Source: a virus
DNA length: 23,797 nucleotides
Reading direction: 5' to 3' (one strand)
IMG/VR virus record: IMGVR_UViG_3300030098_005824
Span: 1 to 23,797 of that record
Shown: positions 921 to 21,506 of the stretch, piece after piece
How the letters are laid out: each line of letters starts with the position of its first letter
Numbering within the stretch: position 1 is the first letter of the stretch
Position numbers and translations under genes: made by a program
The notes under the pieces: generated by a model
Databases searched by the model: none
What the model was told of the DNA's origin: nothing
Seen by the model: only the letters and a program-made list of their open reading frames with translations

Positions 921-3341
921 ATGGCATATTCTAGTAGTTATTTTCCTAACCAAACAGTAAGTGATGCTGAAAAGTTAAGTTATGATTATGGTTTAAAAGT
1001 AGCAAAAGCTATAGAAGCAGAGTGGTTTTCTAATGATGCTAGTAGAACTTATAACAGTAGATACAGAAATAATTATAATGATTTTCACTCATTAAGACTT
1101 TATGCTAGAGGTGAGCAAGGTATACAAAAATACAAAGACGAGTTGTCTATAAATGGTGATTTATCTTATTTAAATTTAGACTGGACACCAGTACCTATTA
1201 TACCTAAGTTTGTAGATATACTAGTAAACGGTATGACACAAAGAATGTATGATGTAAAGGCTTATTCTCAGTCACCTAACGGTGTTGAAAAGAGAACTAA
1301 TTATATGGAGTCTTTGTTGTCTGATATGGAGCTAAAAGATTTTGATGAAGATATGGCCGCTACATTTGGTATTAATACTAGAGAAACAGATGGTGAAATA
1401 CCAGAGACTACAGAAGAGCTACAAGTTCATATGCAGCTCACCTATAAACAAGCAGTAGAACTAGCGGAAGAACAAGCTATAAAAACTTTGTTTGAAGGTA
1501 ACAACTATGATTTAATACAAAAAAGATTTTATTATGATTTAGCTGTTTTAGGTATTGGTGCAGTTAAAACTGATTTTAATACATCAGAAGGTGTTACTAT
1601 AAAATACGTTGATCCTGCTGATTTAGTTTACTCTCATACAGACTCGCCATACTTTGACGATATATATTATGTTGGTGAAGTTAAAGATATACCTATAAAT
1701 GAACTAGCTAAACAGTTTCCTTTTTTAGATGAAAATGATTTAGAAGATATAGTTAAAAACAAATCTTATCATAAAACATCAGGAAGAGATAAATATAGTT
1801 ACGATAAAAAAGATAACAATACAATACAAGTTTTATATTTTAACTATAAAACTTATATGAACGAGGTTTATAAAATAAAAGAAACAGGTAGTGGTGCAGA
1901 AAAAATAATACCAAAAGACGATCAGTTTAATCCGCCAGAAAGTATGGAAGGTGGTTTTGGTAAACTATTAAAATCTATAGAAGTTTTGTATGAAGGAGCT
2001 TTAATATTAGGTACAGAAAAATTACTTAAATGGGAGATGGCTAAAAATATGATGAGACCAAAAAGTAATTTTACAAAAGTAAAAATGAATTATGCTATTG
2101 TAGCACCTCGTATGTATAATGGTCGTATTGATTCAATAGTAAAACGTGTAACTGGTTTTGCGGATATGATACAACTAACACACTTAAAGTTACAGCAAGT
2201 AATGTCACGTATGATACCTGATGGTGTTTATATGGACGCTGATGGTTTAGCTGAAATAGATTTAGGCAACGGTACAAACTATAATCCACAAGAAGCTTTA
2301 AATATGTTTTTTCAAACTGGATCTGTAATTGGTAGATCGTTTACAAGTGAAGGTGATATGAATCCTGGCAAAGTACCAATACAAGAGATAACTAGCGGTA
2401 GTGGTGGTAATAAAATGCAAGCGTTAATAGGTAATTACAATTATTATTTGCAAATGATTAGAGATACTACTGGGCTTAACGAAGCTAGAGATGGTAGCAT
2501 GCCAGATAAAAATGCTTTAGTAGGTGTACAAAAAATTGCCGCAGCAAACAGCAACACAGCTACAAGACATATATTGCAAAGTGGTTTGTTTTTAACAGCT
2601 GAAATAGCAGAGCTATTATCACTTAGAATATCTGATATTATAGAATATTCACCAACAAAAGAAGCTTTTATAGAAATGTTAGGTAGTCACAATGTAGCTA
2701 CGTTAGAAGAAATGTCTAGCTTACACTTATATGACTTTGGTATATTTATAGAATTACAACCAGATGAAGAAGAAAAAGCAAAGCTTGAAAACAATATACA
2801 AATGGCTATACAACAAAAAAGTATAGATCTTGAAGATGCTATTGATATACGTGAAATTAGAAATTTAAAACTAGCTAATCAAGTTTTAAAAATACGTAGA
2901 AGAAAAAAACAAGAGCGTGATAGACAAATGCAGTTAGAAAATATACAAGCACAAACACAGTCTAATACACAAGCAGCACAAGCAGCAGCTCAAGTTGATA
3001 TGCAAAAAGAACAAGCTATAACACAATCAAAAATACAACTAGAACAAGTTAAAGCTCAAATAGAAGCGCAAAAAATGCAACAAGAAGTTGCAGCTAAAAA
3101 AGAATTAATGCAAATAGAGTTTCAATACAACATGGCTATTAAAGGCGCTGAAGCAAATAACTTAAAACAAAGAGAAAAAGAAAAAGAAGATCGTAAAGAC
3201 GAAAGAACAAAAATACAAGCTACACAACAAAGTGAAATGATAGAGCAAAGAAAAACAGGTAAACCACCTAAAAACTTTGAGTCTTCAGGTAATGATATAC
3301 TAAGTGGTAGCTTTGATTTAGGAGCTTTTAATCCTAGATAA
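921..3341 (+). CDS. Portal protein, crAss-like
   Basis: The portal is the dodecameric ring at one capsid vertex through which DNA enters and leaves and on which the tail is built. At 806 residues it has the usual length for crAss-like portals. Conserved-looking blocks are LNLDWTPVPIIPKFVDILVNG (about residues 83-103), the LAVLGIGAVKTDFN region, and TGLNEARDGS followed by NALVGVQKIAAANSNTATRH (about 517-550). The C-terminal 150 residues or so are rich in Gln, Ala, Glu and Lys and should form a long helical coiled coil or barrel inside the capsid, ending in a short Gly/Ser/Phe tail. The ATG at 921 is two bases after the terminase stop and has no Shine-Dalgarno sequence, only an A/T leader. Assignment rests on remembered family motifs plus its place between terminase and scaffold. 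Confidence 0.9.
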   Translation: MAYSSSYFPNQTVSDAEKLSYDYGLKVAKAIEAEWFSNDASRTYNSRYRNNYNDFHSLRLYARGEQGIQKYKDELSINGDLSYLNLDWTPVPIIPKFVDILVNGMTQRMYDVKAYSQSPNGVEKRTNYMESLLSDMELKDFDEDMAATFGINTRETDGEIPETTEELQVHMQLTYKQAVELAEEQAIKTLFEGNNYDLIQKRFYYDLAVLGIGAVKTDFNTSEGVTIKYVDPADLVYSHTDSPYFDDIYYVGEVKDIPINELAKQFPFLDENDLEDIVKNKSYHKTSGRDKYSYDKKDNNTIQVLYFNYKTYMNEVYKIKETGSGAEKIIPKDDQFNPPESMEGGFGKLLKSIEVLYEGALILGTEKLLKWEMAKNMMRPKSNFTKVKMNYAIVAPRMYNGRIDSIVKRVTGFADMIQLTHLKLQQVMSRMIPDGVYMDADGLAEIDLGNGTNYNPQEALNMFFQTGSVIGRSFTSEGDMNPGKVPIQEITSGSGGNKMQALIGNYNYYLQMIRDTTGLNEARDGSMPDKNALVGVQKIAAANSNTATRHILQSGLFLTAEIAELLSLRISDIIEYSPTKEAFIEMLGSHNVATLEEMSSLHLYDFGIFIELQPDEEEKAKLENNIQMAIQQKSIDLEDAIDIREIRNLKLANQVLKIRRRKKQERDRQMQLENIQAQTQSNTQAAQAAAQVDMQKEQAITQSKIQLEQVKAQIEAQKMQQEVAAKKELMQIEFQYNMAIKGAEANNLKQREKEKEDRKDERTKIQATQQSEMIEQRKTGKPPKNFESSGNDILSGSFDLGAFNPR

Positions 3342-7730: not shown

Positions 7731-9287
7731 ATGGGATTATTAAACGAAACACAAAAAAATTATTATAGAGGCGCTAACCATGGTAACTATCAGTTTACAT
7801 CTTTAAACGATATAATAAATCAATTTTTAGTTGTTTACGTTGGTGAAGGAAAAGCAATATCAAAAGCTAGTAGATTAGATGTAGCTTTTCACGCGCAAAG
7901 AGCTATGCAAGAACTATCGTTTGATACTTTTAAATCTGTAAAAACTCAAGAAATAGAATTACCACCTAGCTTAAAAATGATGCTTCCACAAGACTATGTT
8001 AATTATGTTAAACTAACATTTAGTGATAGCTCAGGTATTGAACACATAATATATCCTACTAGCAAAACTTCTAATCCTTTTAAAGTGCCTCAAAACGCAG
8101 ATGGTAGTTATAATTTCGCTGCTACTTTAAACGGTACTATTCCAAATGCAAATTTTGATGATCCTCTTCTAGGTACAACTGGTAATCCAGACGATGGTTG
8201 GTTACACTCAGAAATTACTTCTACAGCTTTGTCTAACGTAGATATAATAGATACAAATAACAGTGAATTAAGATTTGTTCATGGATCTGAAAACCATATA
8301 GGAGTTGGTGCTGGTATAGCTAGTAATGTATATTGCGTTTGGCAAAGAATAAACGTCACGGGTATGGACTTAATACATGTTTCAGCTGACGGTTTTTCTA
8401 GTAGCGCTTCTGTAGGTAATAAAGACGCTGGTATAATAAGATTTGGTATTTCACTTAGAGAGCCATCTAGTACAACTTCAATATCTACTTTTGATATAAC
8501 AAACACAAATCCTAATAGTCCTTTTAATCAAACTGCTGATCCATATCAAGTGTATACAGCTCAAATTTCAACAGGAGAATCTGCTTTTGCAGAGTTTAAT
8601 GATGGAAACGAAACTTTTTCAACAAAAAGTATAAATAATATAAATGTTGCTGATGCTCTTGAAGATCCAACTACAGGAGAAAAATATGTTTGGTTTGTAA
8701 TTACTAGTTTTGTACCTAACTATACTACTTTATATACCGCTGCTAGTCCAAATGAAAGTGTAAATCGTCTTGATAATATAACTTTTAGTTTTTTAGGTGA
8801 AATAGATAATTTAATACCAGAAGGTGATTCTACTACTTGGACAAACTTTAAATCACACAAGCCTTCTGAAAACAATATAAACGATTATCAAGATTATCAA
8901 AACCATATATACTGGCCTAACGAAGGAGAAAGATATGGTTTAGATCCTCAACACGCTCAAGTTAATGGTAGTTTTTATATAGACGAAAGAAAAGGTATGA
9001 TACATTTTTCATCAATATTATCAGGTAAAACTATTATTTTAGAATACATTAGCGACGGTTTAGGTACAGACCAAGAGATGAAGGTGCATAAATTTGCTGA
9101 AGAAGCTATGTACAAAAGTATAGCTCACGCAATAATTTCTGCTTCTTCATATGGACAGAACTTAGTTCGTAGATATAAAAAAGAAAAATTTGCTGCTATT
9201 AGACAAGCAAAATTAAGATTATCTAATATTAAATTAGAAGAAATAACTCAAATATTTAGAGGTAAATCTAAACAAATAAAACATTAA
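7731..9287 (+). CDS. Tail connector protein with inserted beta-rich domain, crAss-like
   Basis: The ends of this 518-residue protein carry a strongly conserved crAss-like pattern. At the N-terminus are NYQFTSLNDIINQFLVVYVG (19-38), HAQRAMQELSFDTFKSVKTQ (54-73) and LPQDYVNYVKL (85-95). At the C-terminus are QVNGSFYIDERKGMIHFSS (410-428), LEYISDGLG (437-445), KVHKFAEEAMYKSIAHAI (451-468) and RLSNIKLEEITQIFRGKSKQ (496-515). It is probably a ring or tail-tube connector, the role of P22 gp4 or T7 gp11 type adaptors. Between the halves, residues about 130-358 form an extra beta-rich domain that starts NGTIPNANFDD...DDGWLHSEI and ends NRLDNITFSF, the look of a CBM4/9-type jelly-roll. It starts three bases after the preceding stop. 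Confidence 0.78.
   Translation: MGLLNETQKNYYRGANHGNYQFTSLNDIINQFLVVYVGEGKAISKASRLDVAFHAQRAMQELSFDTFKSVKTQEIELPPSLKMMLPQDYVNYVKLTFSDSSGIEHIIYPTSKTSNPFKVPQNADGSYNFAATLNGTIPNANFDDPLLGTTGNPDDGWLHSEITSTALSNVDIIDTNNSELRFVHGSENHIGVGAGIASNVYCVWQRINVTGMDLIHVSADGFSSSASVGNKDAGIIRFGISLREPSSTTSISTFDITNTNPNSPFNQTADPYQVYTAQISTGESAFAEFNDGNETFSTKSINNINVADALEDPTTGEKYVWFVITSFVPNYTTLYTAASPNESVNRLDNITFSFLGEIDNLIPEGDSTTWTNFKSHKPSENNINDYQDYQNHIYWPNEGERYGLDPQHAQVNGSFYIDERKGMIHFSSILSGKTIILEYISDGLGTDQEMKVHKFAEEAMYKSIAHAIISASSYGQNLVRRYKKEKFAAIRQAKLRLSNIKLEEITQIFRGKSKQIKH
8127..8805 (+). other. Inserted carbohydrate-binding-like (jelly-roll) domain in the connector
   Basis: Codons about 133-358 of the connector interrupt the conserved N- and C-terminal blocks. 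The segment is rich in Ser, Thr, Asn and short beta strands, opens with an N-x-N-F...W pattern and closes with RLDNITFSFLG, the usual ending of CBM4/9-like modules. A similar RIDNITLRE ending occurs in the giant tail protein at residue 3163. The domain call is inference from pattern; no ligand residues can be assigned. Confidence 0.5.
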
Positions 9288-9291
9288 TTAA

Positions 9292-12200
9292 ATGCCAGAA
9301 ATTAAGAATACTTTTTTAAAAGGTCGAATGAACAAAGACCTTGACGAAAGGTTAGTGCCTAATGGAGAATATAGAGATGCACTTAATATTAATGTGTCTA
9401 CTTCAGAAGATTCTGATATTGGTACAGCCCAAACAATACTTGGTAATATAAGAATAGAAGATATTGTTGATATAGATTTTATTTGCATAGGTAGTATAGC
9501 TAATGAAAAAACAAATAAGCTATATTGGTTTCTAAAAAACGATAATGAAGGTACTGACGCTATATTAGAATATGATGGTAATATTGATGAGGTTTTTCAT
9601 ATATTTACAGATATAAAATCTAATACAGATGAGCCTGTACTTAGGTTTCCTAATAGAACAATAACAGGTATAAACATAATAGATAATTTACTTTTTTGGA
9701 CTGACGGCGAAGGTGAGCCTAAAAAAATAAATATAGATGACTGTAAAGATGGAACTATAGATTTATATCAACATACTCAACTAGTAGTTTTAGGTGATGA
9801 GCTAGGCGATATTAGAGAAGAAGATATTACAGTAATAAAAAAGAAGCCTACATTAGCACCAGTTGCCATACCTAATTTTATACAGTCTACAATACAAGAT
9901 AACACCTATAATCAAAAAACCTCTCTTTTTGAAAAAGTATTTTCAAGATTTGCTTTTAGATATAAATATAAAGACAATGAATACTCAGCTTTTGGCCCTT
10001 TCTCAAACGTAGTTTTTAATCCTCAATACGTAACAAATCCTCATAAAAAAAATAATGCTGCTAGTTTTGAACAATATAACAACGAAACTAGTTTTAGTAT
10101 AAACGAGCCTTTTAACGCTACTATGGTAAATAAAATAGATACCATAGATATATATAATTTTGTTTTACCAGACATGCCTAGAGGTGTAGTTGAAATAGAA
10201 ATACTTTACAAACAAGAAGATTCACCTGTTATTTATTCTATAGCTAAACTAAATAAAAAAGATACAGAAGGTTACTGGGATTTTAGTGGTTTTAATGAAG
10301 GCGCAAATCTTGCTACTGGTTCTTCAATACAAGGAAAATACACTATAACTACTGAAAATATATATGCTGCTCTACCAGAAAATCAATTTATTAGAGTTTT
10401 TGATACTGTTCCTAAAAAAGCTTTAGGTCAAGAAATAACTGGCAATAGGTTAGTTTACGCTAACTATACGCAAGGCTATAACATGGATGTTGATACTATT
10501 GGCAATGAACTATACTCTATACAAATAACAGCTGATTACGAAAAAAGAATAAATGATGCTAGTTTAAACTTTGATATAACACCTTTAAGATCATTAAAAT
10601 CTTTAAGAAACTATCAAGTAGGTATTGTTTTTGGTGATGAATATGGTAGAGAAACTCCTGTTTTTACATCTGCAGATGGCGCTGTTTCTGTTCCTTGGGC
10701 TGATAGCAGTAACGAAGGTAATGCTAGTTCTAGTTTAAGTTTAAAAGCTCAAATAAATTCTAATTACCCTAATTGGGCTAGTTATTTTAAGTTTTATATT
10801 AAAGAAACATCTACGGAATATTATAATTTAATAATGGATAAAGCATACGTTCCGTCTTCTCAAGATGAAAAAGATAGAAATGTATCTCCAAATCATATAT
10901 GGATATCTTTCTTTTCTTCTGATAGAAATAAAATTGATATAGAAGATCATATAATACTTAAAACAGTAATTAACGATGAAACAGAAGGTCAATATCCTTA
11001 TAACAATAAATTTAAAATAATTGATATTCAAAACGAAGCTCCAGATTCTATTTCTTACGAGTTTCATAACATAGCTAGTATAAGCAACGAAATATCTGTT
11101 GGTTCTACTGAAGGTAATTTAAGTAAAGTTTTAACAAATTTAAACCATAGTATTATATCTGTAGATACTGATACGTTAGAGTTTGACGTAGGCAATTTTC
11201 ATGATTTAGCTATTGGCGCTGGTGGTACATTTGGTCCTAGAACAGGCTATGAAGACGTTAAAGCCGCTAACAATCAAGATTATTTTATTTCTTGGTATAA
11301 ATTAGGTTCAGATGGAACAAGAGTATATTCTCAAGACTATAGAGTTAGATCTGTGCTTGGTAAAGATGGTACTTATAGAGTAAAATTACAAAAACGTATA
11401 GTTGCAAGTGACACTAATTTAGCTCAAAATGCTAGTGGTGATTTACATGAAAATGTTTTTTTAAATGTTTTTAGAAAACAAAGAAAAGAACCAGATCAAT
11501 TTTCTGGTAGGTTTTTTGTTAAAGTTTTGTTTGATTATGTTGTTAATGACATAAGAAATATTGCAGAGGTTTTTGACTTTACGGTTGTTGCCTCTGCTAA
11601 AATGAAATATTGGCTAGACAAATATGATGATCCTAATGGAACTTTAAATTATGATGAAGTAAATAAAATAGTAAACGTAGATTCTACTATAAATGATTAT
11701 GATACTTCAGCTGATGCTACTATTGGTACTGTAATTTTAGGTAATACTCACTCTGGTAGTAATATAGTAAACAAAGAAGAAAGTGATTGGAGTGTTTTAT
11801 ATAATCATTGTCATGACGGAAGTATATCTAACGCTTTCTTTATTGATAATATGTATTTTGCAGCTGGTCAATCAAATAAAGATTTAAAATACGCTAAATA
11901 CGCAACTGATGTTCTATCTGGTCAATCTGTTGGATCGACAGGTTCTCAATATACTTTTGCGACTTGGGAAAATAGACATCTTAGAGGTATACCACCTACA
12001 GCAGGTGCTACTTCTTTATTAAAACTTAAACCTAATTCATCTACACCTATGTATGATGCAGGTAATTATTTTGATTATTTAGTTCACCAACACGTTTCTT
12101 ACACAGGTAGTACTTCTAGCGTTGGTGTAGTTAATCCTCAAGATGATTTTGATGATGGAGAAGATTTTATAACAGCTGTAACAGCTGTAAATCCAGGAAG

Positions 12201-15200
12201 CTTTGTGTCTGGAAATTTTGTACCACCTATTACTCAAAGCAATTGGACAAGCAATACTTTAGCGTCTACGCCTTCTACTAACACAGGGTTTAATTATCAA
12301 GCTCCAAATGCAGTTTGGGCAGATTATAGATGGTACCCTTTCGCTAAAGATAGTAGCGTTGGTTATTATTTTAAACAATTTGGTACAGGTGCTGGAAATG
12401 TTGGTAGTGCTGGAGGTGCTGGAGCTGCTCTTGCAAACACAATGGTTGGTTTAAATGTAAATCATCCTTGGGTTACAGCTGATTTAGGTACTACTGTTGA
12501 TTGGAGTGCTTGGGATAATTATATAAAACCTATATATTCACAATCAATTACTAGTAGTGTTGATTTTGCTCCAGAAGCAATTACAAATAGCATGCAAGGT
12601 ATTTTTACTAGCACAACTCAACACACTATAGGTCCAAGTACGTCTGCTGCTTATCTTGCAGGAAATTTAGACGCTGGTTCTAAATCTTGGTTAAGTTACA
12701 AAAATAGTGACAATCAACTTCGTCATGATAATATTTACGGTCAAGATGATGGTAAAATTTTTATGCATTTATCGTTTTTAGGTCCTGGTAGAGATTTAGT
12801 GCCTGATAATTTAGATCTTACAAACGCAGATATAAAAGGTCCTAATTGTATAGGTGCTTATTTACAAGGTATACATGGTGGTGGTGTGTTTACAAAATCT
12901 GTAAAAGATGGTTTAGATAATGGTTGGGAGTTTAAAAGTACGCCTGAATGGAATTCACCACAAGTAATAGAATGTGAAGGCACGTCATACGATACTTATA
13001 AAAATCTTTATTCGCAACAACTTAATATTGGTAAAAACCCTAATTACCAAGATTTACATTATGATCAGTGGAGTCCTACAAAATGTATAAACGGTGATTC
13101 AAATAATGAAATAACTGATTTTTTACAAAACTTATTTTTTCCACAATCAAGGTTTAGATTTTCAGGAGATCCAAATGGTGCTATATACACTATAAAAAGT
13201 ATAAAAGAAAAATATTTATATAATCACACTCCTTGGAAAAGAAGATATGTTAAAAAATCTAGCTACACAAGTAGTTCTACTTTTCAAGAAATCGGAGATT
13301 TTAGAAATGAAATTAATATACAACCAGGTGGTGATAGTGTTGAAGAAGCTGCTGTTGCTTGGGCTAAAGCTAAAGAAGATAACGATTTTTTATTAGCATC
13401 AAAAACAAACGCATTAGAACAAAAAATAATAGATTTTGGTAAAGCAAATAATCGTCGTGTCGTATATATATTAGAATTAGTAGATGAAAATGGTAATCCT
13501 TTAGACCCTAGAATTGCATCATCAGGATTTAACCCAGTAGATGCTGATTCAGATGGTTCTGGTATAGTTGCGGCTAACGGTGATAGTAGAATGGAGTTTT
13601 TAAATTATTTACCTGGTATAGTTAGTGGTAATATTTCTAATAATCCCGCTATATGGGAAACAGAGCCAAGAGAAAATAAAGATTTAGAGGTTTATTACGA
13701 GGCAAGCAATGCTTTACCTACAAAGTTAAATGTTGATACATCGGAGCTTTACGCTCCTGTGGGTTGTAGAGTAGAAGCTTTAAATAGACCAGGCTCTTTA
13801 AATGGTCAAATTACACTTTCAGAATGCAATATAACTGGTTATAGTGAACACACAGATGGTAGACTTATTTTAGAAACAACTGGTTTTAATGCTATCGATG
13901 CAGCTGGTAATGTTATAACTTATGCAGATCCAAATCCTGGATTTGGTTTAGCAGCAACTACTTGTATATTAAAATGTATTAGAAACGATGGTAGCTATAC
14001 TATTTTTAGAGCAGTTGACTCTACTATAGATCAACCATTTAGTACCTTAGGTAACATTACAAGTAATTTTGTTGTAATATATCAAGTAGGTTTTGATTTT
14101 GGACTAAGCTGGTATAATTCTTTTAGTTTAGGCAATGGTATTGAATCTAATAGAATTAGAGACGAGTTTAATAAAATGCAAATTACTAACGGGGCTAGGG
14201 CTTCAGCTGTTTTAGACGAACCATATGCAGAAGAAAATAGAAAAAATGGTTTAATATATTCTGGTATATATAACTCTACTTCTAGCGTTAATAACTTAAA
14301 TCAGTTTATAATTGGTGAAAAAATTACAAAAGATTTAAATCCAACATACGGTAGTATACAAAAATTATTTCAAAGAAGAGTTAGTTTAATAGCTTTTTGT
14401 GAAGATAGAGTTGTTAGTATAGTTTCAAATAAAGATTCTTTGTTTAATGCTGATGGCAAGCCTCAGCTTATATCTTCCACAAACGTTTTAGGTGATGCAA
14501 ATCCTTTTATTGGTAATTATGGTATATCTAAAAATCCAGAGTCATTTGCTAGTGAGTCTTATAGAGCTTATTTTACAGACAAAGCAAGAGGTGCTGTACT
14601 AAGATTATCAAAAGATGGTTTAACACCTATATCTGATGCTGGTATGAAAGATTGGTTTAGAGATAATTTATCTAATTATGATGTTATACTTGGTAGTTAT
14701 GATAGTTATAACGATGATTATAATATCAGTTTAATTACAGAAGTTGAATTAGGTTACAATTTTATTAAAAACTCATTTTTAGATTATGGTGATATTAGTG
14801 TTACTCAAAGTTCTAATCCTGAATTAATACAAAATAATAATTTTAATAATAGTACAAATACAAATTGGCCTTCTGTTGTAAGCAACATATTAAACAATGA
14901 ACCTGATCAAACAAAAAATCCAGATTTAATTGTTAAGGTTGATATTACAGAGTACATGCAAATACCTGAAAATTATTTTCTTCAACCTACAACTGGTACT
15001 CCATCTGTTCCAGCTGTGTTAGGTCAACCTCCTGTATATGATACTTCAGCAGGACCAACAACATCTGGGCTTTTTGGTAATGCGGAAGCTCAGGTTTCAA
15101 TATATAGAATGTCTACACCTAGTCCAAACGAAAATGATAGTTATAAATATAATATATTTAAAACTCCTGATAACAACGATGGAAGTAAAAGTAGTTTTGG

Positions 15201-18200
15201 ACCACCTAATCTTACCGCTGATAGACCAGGTGCTCAAGGTTTAATGTTATTAAAACGAGAACTTAGAGGTTTTAGTCCTCTTAGAGACACAACAGATGCC
15301 GGTAATTATGTTAATAGACCTAGTGATGACAGAGGTGTAGCATCACAAGCAGGTTCAACACTATATGATCCTACTTACTGGCAACACGCTTGGGGTAATA
15401 TATATTATAATTGGTTTTATGGACTAAGTAATATTAATAATACTAATAATAATAGATATAATCAATATAATTTTCTTGATTATATTAAGCAAGGAACAAG
15501 CAAATCAATAAACCCTAGTGATCAAAGAGATGTTATAACGTTTGATTATAATTATCAAATTTACTACGAAGTAAGAAGTGGTATTTATAATAATACTTAT
15601 TATGGTAAACAACATGATCAATTGCAAATAGTTACTGATGTTGATGCTGGTAACTATACAACCACTACAGTTCCTCCAAATAATCCTTTTCAATTTATAT
15701 ATCAAGCTCTTTTAAAAAACAATTTAACTAGTGTAAACAACAATACTCCTAATGACGCTACTATTTATGCAGGAGAATCAATAACAATAGATATTGGTTA
15801 TATTGTTGAATTAGGACCTCAGTATTTATATGATTATTTTCCTCCGCAAAATTTAAGCGGACCAAACGGTGGTGGACCGACTTATGGTTTTGGAGATCCT
15901 AATCAAGGTTCTTTTGGAGTTCAGCCACAAAGTTTATGGAAAGGTTATAAAGGTGGAGAAACACAAAGTAATGCTAATGGAACCAATGGTTCTAGTATTA
16001 AAGATAATAGTGGGTTAGGTTTTAGCGTTAGCAAATCTAATCCTTTACCTAATTTAGGTAATAATAACAACTCTCATAATACTGTTTGGCCTTATTTCCA
16101 GCTTAGTGACAGCGGTGGAAATTTGTCATTAAACGGTAATTTTAGAAACCCTTGGAATCAACCTTTTGCTCACGAAATAATTGTAGAATTAACAGATGGT
16201 TCAAATATTATAAACAACGATCTTTTAGTAGATTCTACATTAGATCTTAATGATTTAGATGGATCAGGAAATTTAGTAGATAATGAATATAGATGGGAAA
16301 ATTCTAGTGGTAATCAAGGTGCATGGGTAAATACTTATCAAAAACCAGACGGATCTGGTAATTTAATAGATAATACACATTATACTACATATTCACTTGC
16401 TAGTACAAAAACTTTTGCTCCAGATATATTTAAAGTTTATGGTAATAATAATCAATTTGGTGTTGTTAAAATGAGGATTAAATATAAATTTAAAGACTGG
16501 ATTGATGAAGTTGATCCTAATTTTAATCCTACTACAGCAACTCAAGAAGAGTTAAAAAGAGCAAGTATGGTTGTTGTTGAAAAACTAAATGTAGGGCTAA
16601 GGTTTAGATGCCACGATTACGACGGTGTTGATACTAGAAATAGAATACATTTGTTTGAGCTTAGTGTTCAAAAAAATGATCATGCGACCGTGCCTCCAAC
16701 GTTTGGTACTCCAGCTGTACCAGGTGTACCTGGACAACCAGGTGTTCCAAGTTATACTGTACCTGGTATTGCGGCTGTTAATTATATATATTCTAACAAC
16801 GCTCAATCTCAACAAGATATACTTTACGGTAACATACAACCTAGTAATTTAAATTTATTTCCAGTAACAAAATCAACTTTAGCAGATGATCCTATAAATT
16901 TACAAGATTTAATAATGCAGTCTGTAGTTGGTCATGACGGCCTTACTTATACTTGGACTGAGATTGATCCCTCAGCAGTTGGTACTAATTTTTATGGTCA
17001 AGGTGTTTATCAAATTGGTAACGTGTCAACTCTTACTCAGTATGATACACATAACAATACGATAACATCAAATCCTGGAGTACCATTAGAAATAAACGAT
17101 GAAATTAGTATTTCACCTAGTGGTGTACTTACATCAACGTATTTAAAGTTTTTTACTGAAAGTTTTATATCTGATAACTATTATTTAATAGATATTGTAG
17201 ATGACCCAAACACTTCTAACGATACTATTTTTGTAGATGGTTTTTTTGATCAAAACAACTTGCCTGCAAATACTTTAAATCCAGGAGATAATGGTTATCC
17301 TTCAGGTCATTTTGGTGAAACTAATATTTTTGGGTTGCCTGCTGACGGTATTAAATTTAAAAGAGTTAATAGAGTAACGCTTCAAAATCATTTTGATTAT
17401 GACTTAGATGGTGTGTTTAATTATGTACCATCAGGTGAAGAACCTACAGCTTTAAGAGCTATAGTAAAAGCTCATGCTGGTTCTAGCGTAATAACATCTC
17501 AAAATGGTTTTAGTATTTCTGAATTACATTTAAGGGTAAATGAATATAGCGGTACTATTAAAAAAATAGTAATAAAAAATCTTGGAAATTATGCGCTAAT
17601 GCCAACATATCCAACTAGCACGCCTATAAATTTACCTGATTTTGGTTCTGTTGTAAACTGGCACGGTAGTTTTTCATCTGATTTAGCTCCTGTGTATCAC
17701 GCCATGAGTGTACCAATTCAATATGTAAGAAATAATGAAATACACATTAATTCTTTTCCGCAATTTGTATCTGCAAGTGAAAACACTTTGTGGACACAAT
17801 CTGGTAATCAAAATAGGTATATAGGTGGTAAACATACTAATGCTTCTATGCAATACGTAGGAACTAATTCCAATGAAGCACCACAACCTTCAAACGACGG
17901 TTACGAAATAATTTTTGAAGTTGGTAATGAACACTATAGTAATCAAATGACTCGTTTTAGATTTTTATATAGAAGTTATGACAACGCAACAACAGAAAGA
18001 AAAGGTTTTGCTGTAGCAGATATAGATACTCCTGGTACATATAGAGCTATAGCTAACTTTGATGGTAATACAACTTTACCTAATGGTAATCCTTGGAGCT
18101 TAGAGTTAGATACTGGTAGTGGTTTTACTGATATAAGTAATACTAGTTCTAACGCTGCTTTAATTGTAGATAACGGTACAACAGGTAGTGGAACTAATTG

Positions 18201-19536
18201 GCAGAATTGGTATGGTAGTTATTATTTTCTTCCATATAATAATTCTACTTCTTTTATTGCTAGCATAAAAAGTTTAAGCGCAAGAAGCATGACTAGTGTT
18301 TTAACTTTTACTTCAGTAAACGCTGCGGATGATTGGGTATTTAGTGGTTTTGATGCTACATTTTTTGAAGAAAACATATTATGGGATAACGGTAGTATAC
18401 TTATAAATAGCACAAATCAACCAACTTTAAATTGGACTGGACAGCATCAATATGTTTATGCTGCGCAACAACTTAGAAACCCTATAACAAACGCTCTAGC
18501 TCGTTTAGAAGCAAACAAAAAATATGTATTAAAGTTTGATATTACTCGTATATCTGGAACTGGTAATTTAGAAATGTTTTACATTAACGGTGCGACAGAT
18601 AAAGGTTTTCAAATAATAGAATCATATACTGATCATGCAATAGGTCAAACTGATACTGTTGAAAAATTAGTTGAAATACTTGATTTTACATCTTCAAATT
18701 ATGTTATTTATGATTATCATGATATAAAAGATTATTTTGTTATAATACCTACATCTGATTCAATTGTTTCTCATTATAGAATAGATAATATTACTTTACG
18801 CGAGACTCCTGAAAATTATGATTTACAAAGTTATACTTTAAGTTATAGTGAAGATGTTAGAGGTTGGACTAGTTTTAAATCTTTTATACCAGAAAGTGGT
18901 GTTAGTTTATCAAAAAAATATTATACTTTTAAAGAAGCAGCTTTGTACCAACACAATTTAGGTGATATATATAATAATTTTTATGGCATACAGTATGATT
19001 CTAGTATAACAGCAGTTCTTAATGCAGAACCTTCAGTTATAAAATCATTTAAAACATTAGGCTATGAAGGAACTCAAGCTAGAGTAAAAAAATATCAATA
19101 TTATACTGATGGTAGCTTAAGCTTTCAAGATTTACGTAATAATTTTACGCAAGGTGAAATATATGGATCACACTATAATTTAAAAGATAAAAACGGTTGG
19201 TATGTGCATGACATAACAACAAACAAACAACAAGGTGTTGTAAAAGAGTTTTTAGAAAAAGAAGGTAAATGGTTTAATTACATAAAAGGAAAAGAAGATT
19301 TAACAACAGAATATATTTCTAAACACATTGCTGACTTTAGTTTTAGAGGTATAGGTGTAATAAACGGCGCTGTAATAGTTCCTGATCCAATAATTTCTAG
19401 CGGTGGAACTACTAGTGGTACGACCACTGGCAATACTACTAGTACTACTACTGGTAATACTACTGGTACTACTACCGGAGGTGGCGGTACAACTACTGGT
19501 GGCGGCGGCGGTACAACTACTGGTGGAGGATATTAA
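9292..19536 (+). CDS. Giant muzzle-like tail protein (3414 residues)
   Basis: This single frame spans 10.2 kb. Its N-terminus, FLKGRMNKDLDERLVPNGEY (residues 8-27), and propeller-like strands resemble the tail-tip or muzzle proteins of crAss-like phages, functionally like P22 gp10 or T7 gp12. Conserved-looking blocks run FSRFAFRYKYKD (about 217), NYQVGIVFGDEYGRETPVF (about 440), WISFFSSDRNKIDIED (about 537), FSGRFFVKVLFD (about 735), then GNGIESNRIRDEFNKM...LNPTYGSIQKL...YGISKNPESF...GMKDWFRDNL (about 1612-1790), and VRGWTSFKSFIPESGVSL...KEGKWFNYIKG near the C-terminus (about 3190-3333). Between them lie long variable regions, about 760-1340 and 1820-3180, with Pro/Val/Gly linkers, Asn-rich patches and jelly-roll-like modules. 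It ends in a Thr/Gly tail. No signal peptide, lyase or protease motif was seen. It is far larger than I recall for the family, suggesting that receptor-binding domains were inserted. Confidence 0.8.
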   Translation: MPEIKNTFLKGRMNKDLDERLVPNGEYRDALNINVSTSEDSDIGTAQTILGNIRIEDIVDIDFICIGSIANEKTNKLYWFLKNDNEGTDAILEYDGNIDEVFHIFTDIKSNTDEPVLRFPNRTITGINIIDNLLFWTDGEGEPKKINIDDCKDGTIDLYQHTQLVVLGDELGDIREEDITVIKKKPTLAPVAIPNFIQSTIQDNTYNQKTSLFEKVFSRFAFRYKYKDNEYSAFGPFSNVVFNPQYVTNPHKKNNAASFEQYNNETSFSINEPFNATMVNKIDTIDIYNFVLPDMPRGVVEIEILYKQEDSPVIYSIAKLNKKDTEGYWDFSGFNEGANLATGSSIQGKYTITTENIYAALPENQFIRVFDTVPKKALGQEITGNRLVYANYTQGYNMDVDTIGNELYSIQITADYEKRINDASLNFDITPLRSLKSLRNYQVGIVFGDEYGRETPVFTSADGAVSVPWADSSNEGNASSSLSLKAQINSNYPNWASYFKFYIKETSTEYYNLIMDKAYVPSSQDEKDRNVSPNHIWISFFSSDRNKIDIEDHIILKTVINDETEGQYPYNNKFKIIDIQNEAPDSISYEFHNIASISNEISVGSTEGNLSKVLTNLNHSIISVDTDTLEFDVGNFHDLAIGAGGTFGPRTGYEDVKAANNQDYFISWYKLGSDGTRVYSQDYRVRSVLGKDGTYRVKLQKRIVASDTNLAQNASGDLHENVFLNVFRKQRKEPDQFSGRFFVKVLFDYVVNDIRNIAEVFDFTVVASAKMKYWLDKYDDPNGTLNYDEVNKIVNVDSTINDYDTSADATIGTVILGNTHSGSNIVNKEESDWSVLYNHCHDGSISNAFFIDNMYFAAGQSNKDLKYAKYATDVLSGQSVGSTGSQYTFATWENRHLRGIPPTAGATSLLKLKPNSSTPMYDAGNYFDYLVHQHVSYTGSTSSVGVVNPQDDFDDGEDFITAVTAVNPGSFVSGNFVPPITQSNWTSNTLASTPSTNTGFNYQAPNAVWADYRWYPFAKDSSVGYYFKQFGTGAGNVGSAGGAGAALANTMVGLNVNHPWVTADLGTTVDWSAWDNYIKPIYSQSITSSVDFAPEAITNSMQGIFTSTTQHTIGPSTSAAYLAGNLDAGSKSWLSYKNSDNQLRHDNIYGQDDGKIFMHLSFLGPGRDLVPDNLDLTNADIKGPNCIGAYLQGIHGGGVFTKSVKDGLDNGWEFKSTPEWNSPQVIECEGTSYDTYKNLYSQQLNIGKNPNYQDLHYDQWSPTKCINGDSNNEITDFLQNLFFPQSRFRFSGDPNGAIYTIKSIKEKYLYNHTPWKRRYVKKSSYTSSSTFQEIGDFRNEINIQPGGDSVEEAAVAWAKAKEDNDFLLASKTNALEQKIIDFGKANNRRVVYILELVDENGNPLDPRIASSGFNPVDADSDGSGIVAANGDSRMEFLNYLPGIVSGNISNNPAIWETEPRENKDLEVYYEASNALPTKLNVDTSELYAPVGCRVEALNRPGSLNGQITLSECNITGYSEHTDGRLILETTGFNAIDAAGNVITYADPNPGFGLAATTCILKCIRNDGSYTIFRAVDSTIDQPFSTLGNITSNFVVIYQVGFDFGLSWYNSFSLGNGIESNRIRDEFNKMQITNGARASAVLDEPYAEENRKNGLIYSGIYNSTSSVNNLNQFIIGEKITKDLNPTYGSIQKLFQRRVSLIAFCEDRVVSIVSNKDSLFNADGKPQLISSTNVLGDANPFIGNYGISKNPESFASESYRAYFTDKARGAVLRLSKDGLTPISDAGMKDWFRDNLSNYDVILGSYDSYNDDYNISLITEVELGYNFIKNSFLDYGDISVTQSSNPELIQNNNFNNSTNTNWPSVVSNILNNEPDQTKNPDLIVKVDITEYMQIPENYFLQPTTGTPSVPAVLGQPPVYDTSAGPTTSGLFGNAEAQVSIYRMSTPSPNENDSYKYNIFKTPDNNDGSKSSFGPPNLTADRPGAQGLMLLKRELRGFSPLRDTTDAGNYVNRPSDDRGVASQAGSTLYDPTYWQHAWGNIYYNWFYGLSNINNTNNNRYNQYNFLDYIKQGTSKSINPSDQRDVITFDYNYQIYYEVRSGIYNNTYYGKQHDQLQIVTDVDAGNYTTTTVPPNNPFQFIYQALLKNNLTSVNNNTPNDATIYAGESITIDIGYIVELGPQYLYDYFPPQNLSGPNGGGPTYGFGDPNQGSFGVQPQSLWKGYKGGETQSNANGTNGSSIKDNSGLGFSVSKSNPLPNLGNNNNSHNTVWPYFQLSDSGGNLSLNGNFRNPWNQPFAHEIIVELTDGSNIINNDLLVDSTLDLNDLDGSGNLVDNEYRWENSSGNQGAWVNTYQKPDGSGNLIDNTHYTTYSLASTKTFAPDIFKVYGNNNQFGVVKMRIKYKFKDWIDEVDPNFNPTTATQEELKRASMVVVEKLNVGLRFRCHDYDGVDTRNRIHLFELSVQKNDHATVPPTFGTPAVPGVPGQPGVPSYTVPGIAAVNYIYSNNAQSQQDILYGNIQPSNLNLFPVTKSTLADDPINLQDLIMQSVVGHDGLTYTWTEIDPSAVGTNFYGQGVYQIGNVSTLTQYDTHNNTITSNPGVPLEINDEISISPSGVLTSTYLKFFTESFISDNYYLIDIVDDPNTSNDTIFVDGFFDQNNLPANTLNPGDNGYPSGHFGETNIFGLPADGIKFKRVNRVTLQNHFDYDLDGVFNYVPSGEEPTALRAIVKAHAGSSVITSQNGFSISELHLRVNEYSGTIKKIVIKNLGNYALMPTYPTSTPINLPDFGSVVNWHGSFSSDLAPVYHAMSVPIQYVRNNEIHINSFPQFVSASENTLWTQSGNQNRYIGGKHTNASMQYVGTNSNEAPQPSNDGYEIIFEVGNEHYSNQMTRFRFLYRSYDNATTERKGFAVADIDTPGTYRAIANFDGNTTLPNGNPWSLELDTGSGFTDISNTSSNAALIVDNGTTGSGTNWQNWYGSYYFLPYNNSTSFIASIKSLSARSMTSVLTFTSVNAADDWVFSGFDATFFEENILWDNGSILINSTNQPTLNWTGQHQYVYAAQQLRNPITNALARLEANKKYVLKFDITRISGTGNLEMFYINGATDKGFQIIESYTDHAIGQTDTVEKLVEILDFTSSNYVIYDYHDIKDYFVIIPTSDSIVSHYRIDNITLRETPENYDLQSYTLSYSEDVRGWTSFKSFIPESGVSLSKKYYTFKEAALYQHNLGDIYNNFYGIQYDSSITAVLNAEPSVIKSFKTLGYEGTQARVKKYQYYTDGSLSFQDLRNNFTQGEIYGSHYNLKDKNGWYVHDITTNKQQGVVKEFLEKEGKWFNYIKGKEDLTTEYISKHIADFSFRGIGVINGAVIVPDPIISSGGTTSGTTTGNTTSTTTGNTTGTTTGGGGTTTGGGGGTTTGGGY
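14995..15063 (+). repeat. Pro/Val-rich linker, copy 1, in the giant tail protein
   Basis: Codons about 1902-1924 read GTPSVPAVLGQPPVYDTSAG. The pattern G-T-P-x-V-P-x-V-x-G-Q-P recurs 570 residues later at 16705, and the DNA is also alike (ggtactcca.ctgt.ccag). It is probably a flexible spacer between folded modules or an exposed loop. Confidence 0.6.
16705..16770 (+). repeat. Pro/Val/Gly-rich linker, copy 2, with collagen-like triplets
   Basis: Codons about 2472-2493 read GTPAVPGVPGQPGVPSYTVP. They include three Gly-X-Pro triplets in a row (GVP GQP GVP) and match copy 1 at 14995. Three triplets are too few for a stable collagen helix, so a linker is more likely. Confidence 0.65.
18490..18815 (+). 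other. CBM4/9-like module near the C-terminus of the giant tail protein
   Basis: Codons about 3067-3174 hold ANKKYVLKFDITRISGTGNL (about 3074-3093), then EMFYINGATDKGF, and close with RIDNITLRE at 3163-3171. The order of a K-Y-x-L-x-F-D-I strand, a G-T-G-x-L-x-x-x strand and a final D-N-I-T strand is typical of jelly-roll carbohydrate-binding modules. The conserved C-terminal block VRGWTSFKSF follows directly. Sugar binding is inferred. Confidence 0.5.
19402..19536 (+). repeat. Thr/Gly low-complexity C-terminal tail
   Basis: The last 44 codons of the giant protein encode almost only Gly and Thr with a few Asn and Ser and a final Tyr. The DNA contains direct repeats; ggcggtacaactactggt is present at 19483-19500 and exactly again at 19507-19524, and act-act-act runs precede it. 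This is slippage-prone and probably varies in length between relatives. The protein tail would be flexible and exposed. Confidence 0.85.
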
Positions 19537-19546
19537 AAAATAAAAT

Positions 19547-21127
19547 ATGAGTTATCATTATACAAATCAAAATAGAGTAACAACTTCAACACAAACAACG
19601 ACACAAAGAGTGACGAGCGCACAGCTATCAACACAACCAGCGCAAAATATTTTAACTTATATTAGCGGAGTACCTCTATTTAGAACTATACAACAAGCTT
19701 TAGCTTATGGTCAACAAGTAGGTTTACGTGGTTATCACACGCATAACTTTCAAGGTGTTGTTGGTTATATGGCTGGGTTTGATCACACAGAAGCATCTAG
19801 AATTACTGCTACAAATGTTGAAACACAAAAAACTATAAAAAATTTTGTTATAAAAGACACAGATTTAACTGTTAATGCAGAAACAAGAAATTTTACTATA
19901 AACGGAGATATAGGATCTAAATTTATTATGCAAGTTATAGAAAAACCTGCTTCGTCTAGCGCTATGGAAAAGTATTATAATTTTAAAACAAAAACTTTTG
20001 AAACAACTACAGCAGGAGTTAATGTAAATCATTTTTTAAAACGAGAGCTTGTAAATAACAATTATACAGATAGAATACTTTTTCCTGCTAGTACTAGTAA
20101 TGGTTATAAAATACTTTTAATGGCAGATCCAGATTCACCTACTATTTTATCGCAAAGCTTAAGTTCATCAAACGTTTTTAGTAAAGATATAAACGATGTA
20201 GCAAATACTACGATTACTTTTGTTTTTAAAACAGCTAATACTAGTACTTATGCTAGTAATCCACCTTCACCTAACTTAACAATATCTGCTCCTCCAGGTA
20301 GACAACAATTAGCCAACACTTTAGATATTGCTAAAACATTAACAAATACTAATTCTGATGCTAATGGTTTTGGTTTAAGAATTACTAGTGCTTTTGATAT
20401 TGAAACTGGTATTTTTTGTGAAAAAACACATACTATAAACGGTGCTGTTAGTAGTTCAAAAACTATAGTTTTAGACAGCGTAGATGGTATAGATGCTAGA
20501 GATACAATAACTAGTGTTAGTGGTGGTGGAGATAGTCTTAGCGGTACTCCTACTGTAAGTACTGTAGATACAGAAACTAACACAATAACACTAACAGGTA
20601 ATAATCAAAGTTTTTCCGACGGAAGTACTTTAACTTTTAAAATAACTGGTAGATCACGTATACAAAGTGCTTTTGGTATTGATTTTAATATTATAAATTT
20701 AGCTATTTTAACTAAAGATATTAAAAAAGCAACAGATTCTTCTATTGATAATAACGTTTTGATCGGAAATCCATTAACAGTTAGTAAAACCGTTAGAGGT
20801 AATATAAGTAGTGGAGCTGGTTTAAGTGGTGGTCTTAACTTAAATGGTACATATGGATTATCTGGAGGAAATGTAGTTTCTATACTTGGTAATGGTATTA
20901 TAGATGATTGTTTATTAAGCGAGATTACAGCTAGTGCTAGTGCAGGTTCAATATCTACATCTACTACTCACGACGATTTACAATCAGGTCAAAAACTTAC
21001 TTTTGTAGGATCAGCTCAAACAATAAGTCTTACAAACTGTACTTTTACACCAAAAGTTTTTCCTAATTCTAATTTAACTATTAATTTAGATTTAGATACT
21101 TTTATAACACCTGGAACAGCAACATAA
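19547..21127 (+). CDS. Probable virion (tail appendage) protein
   Basis: I do not recognise a named family. The 526-residue product begins with a Thr/Gln-rich segment (1-32), then RGYHTHNFQGVVGYMAGFDH (61-80), a His motif of a type I recall in phage tail and fibre proteins; His64, His66 and His80 could bind a metal or form a turn. After it come beta-rich segments (NFVIKDTDLTVNAETRNFTI), a Ser/Thr/Gly-rich middle (about 250-370) with short strand repeats, and a C-terminal part with TITL, LTFK and SISTSTTHDD elements. No catalytic triad, coiled coil or membrane segment is seen. It follows the giant tail protein by ten bases, so an appendage or fibre role is likely. Leader ATAAAATATG, no Shine-Dalgarno; the GGAGGA 16 bases upstream is Gly codons. 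Confidence 0.6.
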   Translation: MSYHYTNQNRVTTSTQTTTQRVTSAQLSTQPAQNILTYISGVPLFRTIQQALAYGQQVGLRGYHTHNFQGVVGYMAGFDHTEASRITATNVETQKTIKNFVIKDTDLTVNAETRNFTINGDIGSKFIMQVIEKPASSSAMEKYYNFKTKTFETTTAGVNVNHFLKRELVNNNYTDRILFPASTSNGYKILLMADPDSPTILSQSLSSSNVFSKDINDVANTTITFVFKTANTSTYASNPPSPNLTISAPPGRQQLANTLDIAKTLTNTNSDANGFGLRITSAFDIETGIFCEKTHTINGAVSSSKTIVLDSVDGIDARDTITSVSGGGDSLSGTPTVSTVDTETNTITLTGNNQSFSDGSTLTFKITGRSRIQSAFGIDFNIINLAILTKDIKKATDSSIDNNVLIGNPLTVSKTVRGNISSGAGLSGGLNLNGTYGLSGGNVVSILGNGIIDDCLLSEITASASAGSISTSTTHDDLQSGQKLTFVGSAQTISLTNCTFTPKVFPNSNLTINLDLDTFITPGTAT

Positions 21128-21141
21128 ATAAAATAATATGG
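21125..21141 (+). promoter_or_regulatory. Repeated A/T start-site leader, copy 1
   Basis: TAAATAAAATAATATGG starts in the stop codon of the preceding gene and ends in the start codon of the 122-residue gene. The identical 17 bases occur before the gene at 21552. It replaces a Shine-Dalgarno site and fits Bacteroidota translation initiation. Confidence 0.55.
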
Positions 21142-21506
21142 CTATAATACAAATACAAATATCAGGCGCTTCATCAAGCGATTATGACGTGAAAACAAAA
21201 CATGTTAGTTTACAAGCTGGTGATTCTGCTTTTTATCAAGAAATAAATAATGACGAACCTATTGCTACTGCTGACAATCCTATATATATAGGTCAGATTA
21301 CTGATGTAGGAGATGATTATATAAAAGTAGAGTCAAGTTTAGATCCTACGTCTATAACAGGTTTTTTAATGTTTTCTAAAAATAAATTAATAAATAATAG
21401 TAGTTTAAACGGTTATTATGCAGATGTTACTTTTAGAAACAATGATTCGCATAATAAAGCAGAGATTTTTGCAATAAACTCAGAGGTATCACAAAGTAGT
21501 AAATAA
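21138..21506 (+). CDS. Small conserved phage protein, probably virion-associated
   Basis: The 122-residue product is beta-rich and has a C-terminal block LNGYYADVTFRNNDSHNKAEIFAINSEVSQSSK (about 90-122) whose pattern (GYYA-V-F-N...E-F...SEVS-SSK) I recall from small proteins in structural regions of marine phages. The N-terminus is IQIQISGASSSDYDVKTKHV with no signal peptide. It lies between two probable virion genes and shares an identical 17-base start leader with the next one. A small tail or tube component is plausible, but the function is not shown by the sequence. Confidence 0.6.
   Translation: MAIIQIQISGASSSDYDVKTKHVSLQAGDSAFYQEINNDEPIATADNPIYIGQITDVGDDYIKVESSLDPTSITGFLMFSKNKLINNSSLNGYYADVTFRNNDSHNKAEIFAINSEVSQSSK

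Follow-up and report, generated by a model that had tools for sequence, protein, structure and literature searches.

Why does a single tail gene take up 43% of a viral contig, and what fills a tail-tip protein that is about 2.5 times the usual length? This question is raised by IMG/VR virus record IMGVR_UViG_3300030098_005824 (positions 1 to 23,797; the whole stretch of 23,797 bases is called the window below), in which one unbroken open reading frame (ORF) of 3414 codons encodes a muzzle-type protein. We consider it probable that this protein is the tail-tip nozzle, or muzzle, of a crAss-like podophage with a conserved propeller, in which the turn of one blade carries an insert of 1366 residues, built as nested jelly rolls of the carbohydrate-binding module (CBM) type with one exchangeable module (a) and serving as a glycan-adhesion array. 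The insertion site is empty, filled or split in relatives, these states recur on the tree, and part of the insert is exchanged between near-identical relatives.

The muzzle gene and its conserved blocks

A preliminary description, made from the letters of the window alone, had read the gene as one muzzle-type tail protein with three sets of conserved blocks separated by insertions of about 580 and about 1360 residues. Both the single gene and the muzzle assignment stand. The protein is matched by phrog_14478 in three stretches (E 2e-121), by phrog_18548 near the C-terminus and by the Pfam family crAss_MUZ_C (PF25729; 37.6 bits, curated cut-off 27); the main-domain family crAss_MUZ (PF25731) has no match in it and matches 4 of 16 relatives. 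A related gene of 3405 residues (L004) aligns with residues 1-3364 at 54% identity, end to end, and the size is therefore not an assembly fusion or accident. The upstream order of terminase, portal, head and ring-protein genes, followed by the muzzle, matches that of isolates. Judged by its sequence, the protein is a member of the crAss-type muzzle (tail-tip) family; the phage itself appears closest to Pervagoviridae and unassigned flavophages, and “crAss-type” is used here of the protein family.

The structure of the muzzle gp44 of PhiCrAss001 is solved (PDB 7qok; PMC10172136). It forms a hexamer; its parts are a ring-joining domain, a propeller of seven blades, two immunoglobulin (Ig)-like domains and a “crass” domain inserted in the second of them, IG2 (PMC10172136). 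Searches of PDB sequences with the whole window protein (phmmer) and with the alignment of its marine family (hmmsearch) gave no match, hence profile-profile comparison was needed to reach gp44. An alignment of the Crassvirales gp44 family was compared with that of the marine family, to which the window is tied by a hidden Markov model (HMM). Residues 1-322 of gp44 align with the N-terminal core of the marine family (hhalign Prob 99.2, E 3e-19) and residues 1050-1281 with its C-terminal blocks (Prob 99.5, E 8e-23). By profile, the N-terminal core, the propeller end and the MUZ_C domain are thus common to gp44 and the window protein. The nearest isolate relatives of the core are gp97 of phi38:1 and its relatives (Pervagoviridae, Cellulophaga phages), with 31% identity; their terminase, portal and muzzle genes are ordered as in the window.

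The conserved cores are indeed split by long gaps, as first described, with limits that we now draw differently. Widely conserved are residues 1-400, 427-589, 1605-1815 (block C1) and 3182-3264/3296-3340 (blocks C2/C3), with a weaker block at 1448-1512. A profile of the short relatives strongly detects 1-402, 427-589 and 1605-1815, and block profiles add 1448-1512, 3182-3264 and 3296-3340.

The first long interval

The interval between blocks N4 and C1 comprises residues 590-1604, that is 1015 residues and not about 580. It is present in all relatives, short ones included: it spans 202-438 residues in three isolates (phi38:1, Gundel_1, elemoA), and most giant relatives have about 600-1160. The mapping to gp44 places it in the IG2/crass region, and crassvirus muzzles are known to vary in length through insertions into the crass and IG2 regions (PMC10172136). 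From sequence, then, it is an enlarged resident IG2/crass domain, of a variation already described for muzzles, and not a novel insertion. One pair of relatives (L007/L015) differs locally in the crass region.

The second interval: site, states and history

The interval between C1 and C2 (residues 1816-3181; 1366 residues, close to the about 1360 first given) is a real insertion, missing from short relatives and from some long ones. In the profile alignment its site falls in gp44 between “NNDVYFT” and “CLCYSE”. There gp44 (1371 residues) has a short turn only, and gp97 of phi38:1 (1324 residues) has 6 residues. We infer that the site is the turn between two strands of one late propeller blade, a hairpin not named as an insertion site in the gp44 paper (PMC10172136).

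Among 83 complete genes from the fetched loci, a few of which are a second fetch of one contig, 29 carry more than 300 residues (366-1436) at this site and most others 3-50. The loci were gathered by peptide patterns and form a non-random sample, therefore the frequencies of states are not population estimates. A tree was computed for 135 loci from nothing but the core blocks, and states were counted after duplicates had been removed (118 loci): the site is empty in 61, filled (more than 300 residues) in 26, intermediate in 6 and split by a gene break in 25. Well-supported branches force five or more changes of the filled state and four or more of the split state. The window's clade (32 rows) holds two empty members, L079 (10 residues) and L076 (18 residues), with clean junctions. 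Since these lie inside a filled clade, they have probably lost the entire insert, although the tree alone cannot tell gain from loss. Outside this clade, L109/L110 and L120 fill the site with sequence of no detectable similarity to other inserts. Scanning with no query other than insert 2 retrieved no relatives; the pattern peptides of the insert sit in fast-diverging sequence. Insert 2 and the other insert sites are negatively correlated, but clade confounds this relation and we make no use of it.

In the 25 split loci the gene stops at or past the insert-2 site. A new ORF then begins with block C2, its start codon lying in most cases three residues ahead of C2; the first ORF of one large split lineage retains some 270-500 extra residues past C1. 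The insertion site and the site of gene fission thus coincide.

A second giant lineage (L016-L035, L103-L154) has the insert-2 site nearly empty, with inserts near residues 90-200 and C-terminal extensions of up to 1194 residues, many with GCTDPxAxNYxxxAxxDDGSC cysteine repeats.

Fold of the insert

The shorter homologous insert of L085 was modelled together with its blade strands by AlphaFold2 (mean predicted local distance difference test, pLDDT, 56; modules about 70-88). Compared with solved structures by VIA-align, the model matches CBM16, CBM4, CBM61, CBM29 and CBM22 (Z 10-12, up to 11.9; root-mean-square deviation about 3 over 125-148 residues), and the homologous insert is thus predicted to fold as jelly rolls of the carbohydrate-binding type. 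Most of these matches run from model residue 65-72, right after the propeller strand, to near 1016, the far end of the insert, and a match to 6yp6 spans residues 89-866. On the simplest reading of the model, the start of the insert would supply the first strand of module d and the residues directly following would supply that of module c, and the remainder would lie nested within. Of motifs resembling the first strand, 29 inserts have 52 in all within their first 120 residues, where shuffled sequence has 8.7 (at most 19 in 1000 shuffles); such motifs are scarce elsewhere in the inserts. In the independent inserts of L109/L110, three start motifs in series and, later, three end motifs can be seen by eye. 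Comparison by hhalign shows homology between modules c and d (Prob 95, E 2.5e-8); modules a and b and the insert of the ring protein have no significant profile link to c/d.

We tentatively suggest, at slightly less than even chances, that the layout is first-in-last-out: each jelly roll was inserted after the first strand of the outer one, so that the innermost and most exposed module is exchangeable while the outer modules and the gate stay fixed, and the same hairpin is independently a point of gene fission in other lineages.

Several points weigh against CBM-type folds and their nesting. The model of the window's own insert is of low confidence (pLDDT 38) and was not used for the fold search. 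In the L085 model, with its mean of 56, the N-terminal strand lies in a stretch near 50; the first strand being in a low-confidence part, nesting is something we infer. Moreover, the VIA-align ranges give the first and last aligned residues only. No Pfam CBM family was matched by sequence in the insert, thus “CBM-like” is a statement on fold and not on family membership. Jelly rolls also have purely structural roles.

Two further candidates were set aside: mid-sized inserts (113-180 residues) as single bare CBMs, which their sequences do not bear out, and a leukocidin match in one relative, weak and below the cut-off, which we disregard as chance.

Exchange of the inner module

That close relatives may differ here, as at a cassette site, had been raised as a possibility, and it is what we find. 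L008, L009 and L011 have cores 98% identical to that of L010, in which L008 residues about 1711-2065, a sub-domain inside insert 2, are replaced. Between L008 and L010 module a is 39% identical and modules b, c and d are 86%, 90% and 86% identical. The replacement has sharp breakpoints in the DNA, with flanks about 89% identical, and covers about 380 residues with insertions and deletions. The window compared with L004 has 82% identity in the core, 77% in d, 64% in c, 40% in b and 39% in a (35-39% over zone a). None of the relatives found exceeds 82% core identity to the window, as would be needed to show an exchange in the window phage itself. The loop, which is empty, filled, split or refilled in its inner domain among relatives, suggests a changeable adhesion module.

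The near-identical contigs also have in common a short direct duplication downstream of the muzzle (L008 21086-21156, L010 21170-21240).

Proposed mechanism and alternatives

Within a propeller blade, the loop between strands 2 and 3 is on the face where neighbouring blades are also connected. The muzzle hexamer would present six copies of the insert array at the tail tip, a putatively host-facing position. There, many weak, multivalent glycan sites may capture polysaccharide of the host capsule or surface; through this capture the tail would be adsorbed or oriented, and the gate brought up to the outer membrane while still closed. A swap of module a would retune glycan specificity with the gate undisturbed. 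Glycan binding and the effect on host specificity are putative as well. Related cases are known from lactococcal phages, where CBM-type insertions in Dit were shown to help the phage adsorb to hosts that bear exopolysaccharide (PMC10688798); host binding was also seen for CBMs of phage virions (PMC6669499). As in these evoDit and other CBM-decorated tail proteins, CBM-type domains appear to sit in a structural tail protein and are present or absent among relatives (PMC10688798, PMC6669499); however, the tail protein, phage type and hosts are different, and here about 1000-1400 residues form several, apparently nested modules. The expectation that the insertions hold receptor-binding modules fits the folds predicted for the L085 homologue of insert 2 and is not supported for the first interval, an enlarged resident domain.

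The insert might instead be a structural dock that anchors separate tail fibres or stabilises the tail and binds no glycan itself, like the propeller loops of the SU10 nozzle. The SU10/T7-type nozzle, here compared with the window by description, is also a hexameric seven-bladed propeller with extra inserted domains at the tail tip, but these are Ig-like and lie between blades 2 and 3 (PMC9509320). We regard a dock as unlikely, since the inner module diverges fastest and is swapped between near-identical phages, as is typical of a receptor-facing part, glycan-binding modules dominate the fold matches, and the whole insert can be missing. If the insert were a mere spacer that extends or bulks up the tail tip while its sequence drifts neutrally, its linker-rich stretches and the low model confidence in parts would be accounted for; modules c and d are, however, conserved (64-77%, window and L004) and predicted to be folded, and exchange is localised rather than uniform, which makes this a poor candidate.

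An enzyme degrading the envelope or capsule, as proposed in the preliminary description, would agree with the glycosidases and esterases containing jelly-roll domains that occur among the structural neighbours. The matches sit on the binding domains, over about 125-150 residues, and neither Pfam nor PHROGs gives an enzyme family for any piece, so that we think this explanation very improbable. Still less credit is due to diversification by a diversity-generating retroelement instead of module exchange. Such elements are reported in tail genes of some crAss-like phages (PMC10136315), but eight related contigs, all possibly fragments, contain no reverse transcriptase and therefore no sign of one, and a change of the extent and edges of that between L008 and L010, with its insertions and deletions, is unlike point diversification.

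Neighbouring genes and other variable joints

Features of the window are collected in the table.

Table. Features of the muzzle gene and its neighbours (positions in the window)
Feature	Position	Strand	Basis
Ring protein with own insert, about residues 143-372 (about 215 residues)	7731..9287	+	phrog_13977 in two stretches
Muzzle protein gene, 3414 residues	9292..19536	+	ORF, phrog_14478, PF25729, end-to-end alignment with L004
N-terminal core, residues 1-589; propeller/IG1 start and first part of IG2	9292..11058	+	Family HMM; gp44 1-322 alignment
Enlarged IG2/crass-domain region, residues 590-1604	11059..14103	+	Interval lengths in relatives
C-terminal propeller block C1, residues 1605-1815	14104..14736	+	HMM E 2.6e-62; gp44 about 1050-1196
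Insert 2, residues 1816-3181, probably between two strands of one propeller blade	14737..18834	+	Empty in L079/L076; gp44 mapping
Two candidate CBM-type first-strand motifs in series, YNFIKNSFLDYG, PELIQNNNFNNS	14755..14859	+	Motif enrichment at insert starts; mapping
Linker and module a, residues about 1898-2515	14983..16836	+	Homologous to hypervariable, exchanged zone of relatives
Module b, residues about 2534-2786	16891..17649	+	Aligns to L085 model residues 540-706
Module c, residues about 2804-3001, predicted jelly-roll type	17701..18294	+	Homology to module d; L085 counterpart well predicted
Module d, residues about 3005-3176, predicted CBM-like jelly roll	18304..18819	+	Family alignment; CBM matches of L085 homologue, Z about 10-12
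C2/C3 blocks (muzzle C-terminal domain), residues 3182-3340	18835..19311	+	PF25729 at residues 3226-3332; block HMMs
Thr/Gly-rich repetitive C-terminal tail	19402..19533	+	12- and 24-base tandem repeats
Small gene D	21138..21506	+	phrog_18548 positions 165-239; family survey

Glycine-rich muzzle ends like that of the window occur in L004, L080 and L100 and are lacking in L007 and L008. The ring protein has 518 residues in the window against 269-307 in isolates, which are without its insert; the insert is found in most of the giant clade and is missing in L104, L127, L148 and L153.

Gene D is separate in the window. L028 and L130 have it joined to the muzzle C-terminus, whereas in the split lineage its fusion partner is the detached C2/C3 block (phrog_18548) (gene-boundary shifts in L028, L130, L133 and L036-L066). 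Other muzzle genes are split near residue 398, between 1510 and 1601, or inside C1 (phage Panino), among L119, L030, L133, L139, L154 and L071; these points coincide with other variable joints of the muzzle. A segment of the downstream tail protein of 526 residues (19547-21127) recurs in the ring protein of L088 and L134 and in the C-terminal muzzle extension of L153, a recurrence in sequence that suggests traffic of modules among tail genes. The muzzle ORF of L151 (5378-14464) has a C-terminal extension whose last part is a Hint (self-processing) domain, with a VHN motif close to the end, and the split muzzle ORF of L065 (10001-14932) carries a fused Fib_succ_major domain (E 8e-39) at its end. 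The annotated muzzle gene of cr60_1 (L160) has 21 stops under table 11, hence stop recoding is likely there.

Implications

Insertions in muzzles and CBM insertions in tail proteins are already known kinds, and length variation of muzzles in crAss-like phages was noted before, without being dissected. Searches of one literature library on giant muzzles and on a blade-sited, nested, exchangeable muzzle insert found no paper. New to our knowledge are an insert placed in a propeller blade and of this size, its apparent nesting, the swap of its inner module, and the finding that genes are split where the insertion lies.

With the insertion point defined, a candidate for the adhesion fold at hand and alleles exchanged naturally between otherwise near-identical phages, what would be called a “variable tail protein” becomes a testable module. 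If our suggestion is true, one segment would reveal the glycan specificity of environmental crAss-like phages, and the nested layout would explain how a gated tail tip can change on its outside without breaking on its inside.
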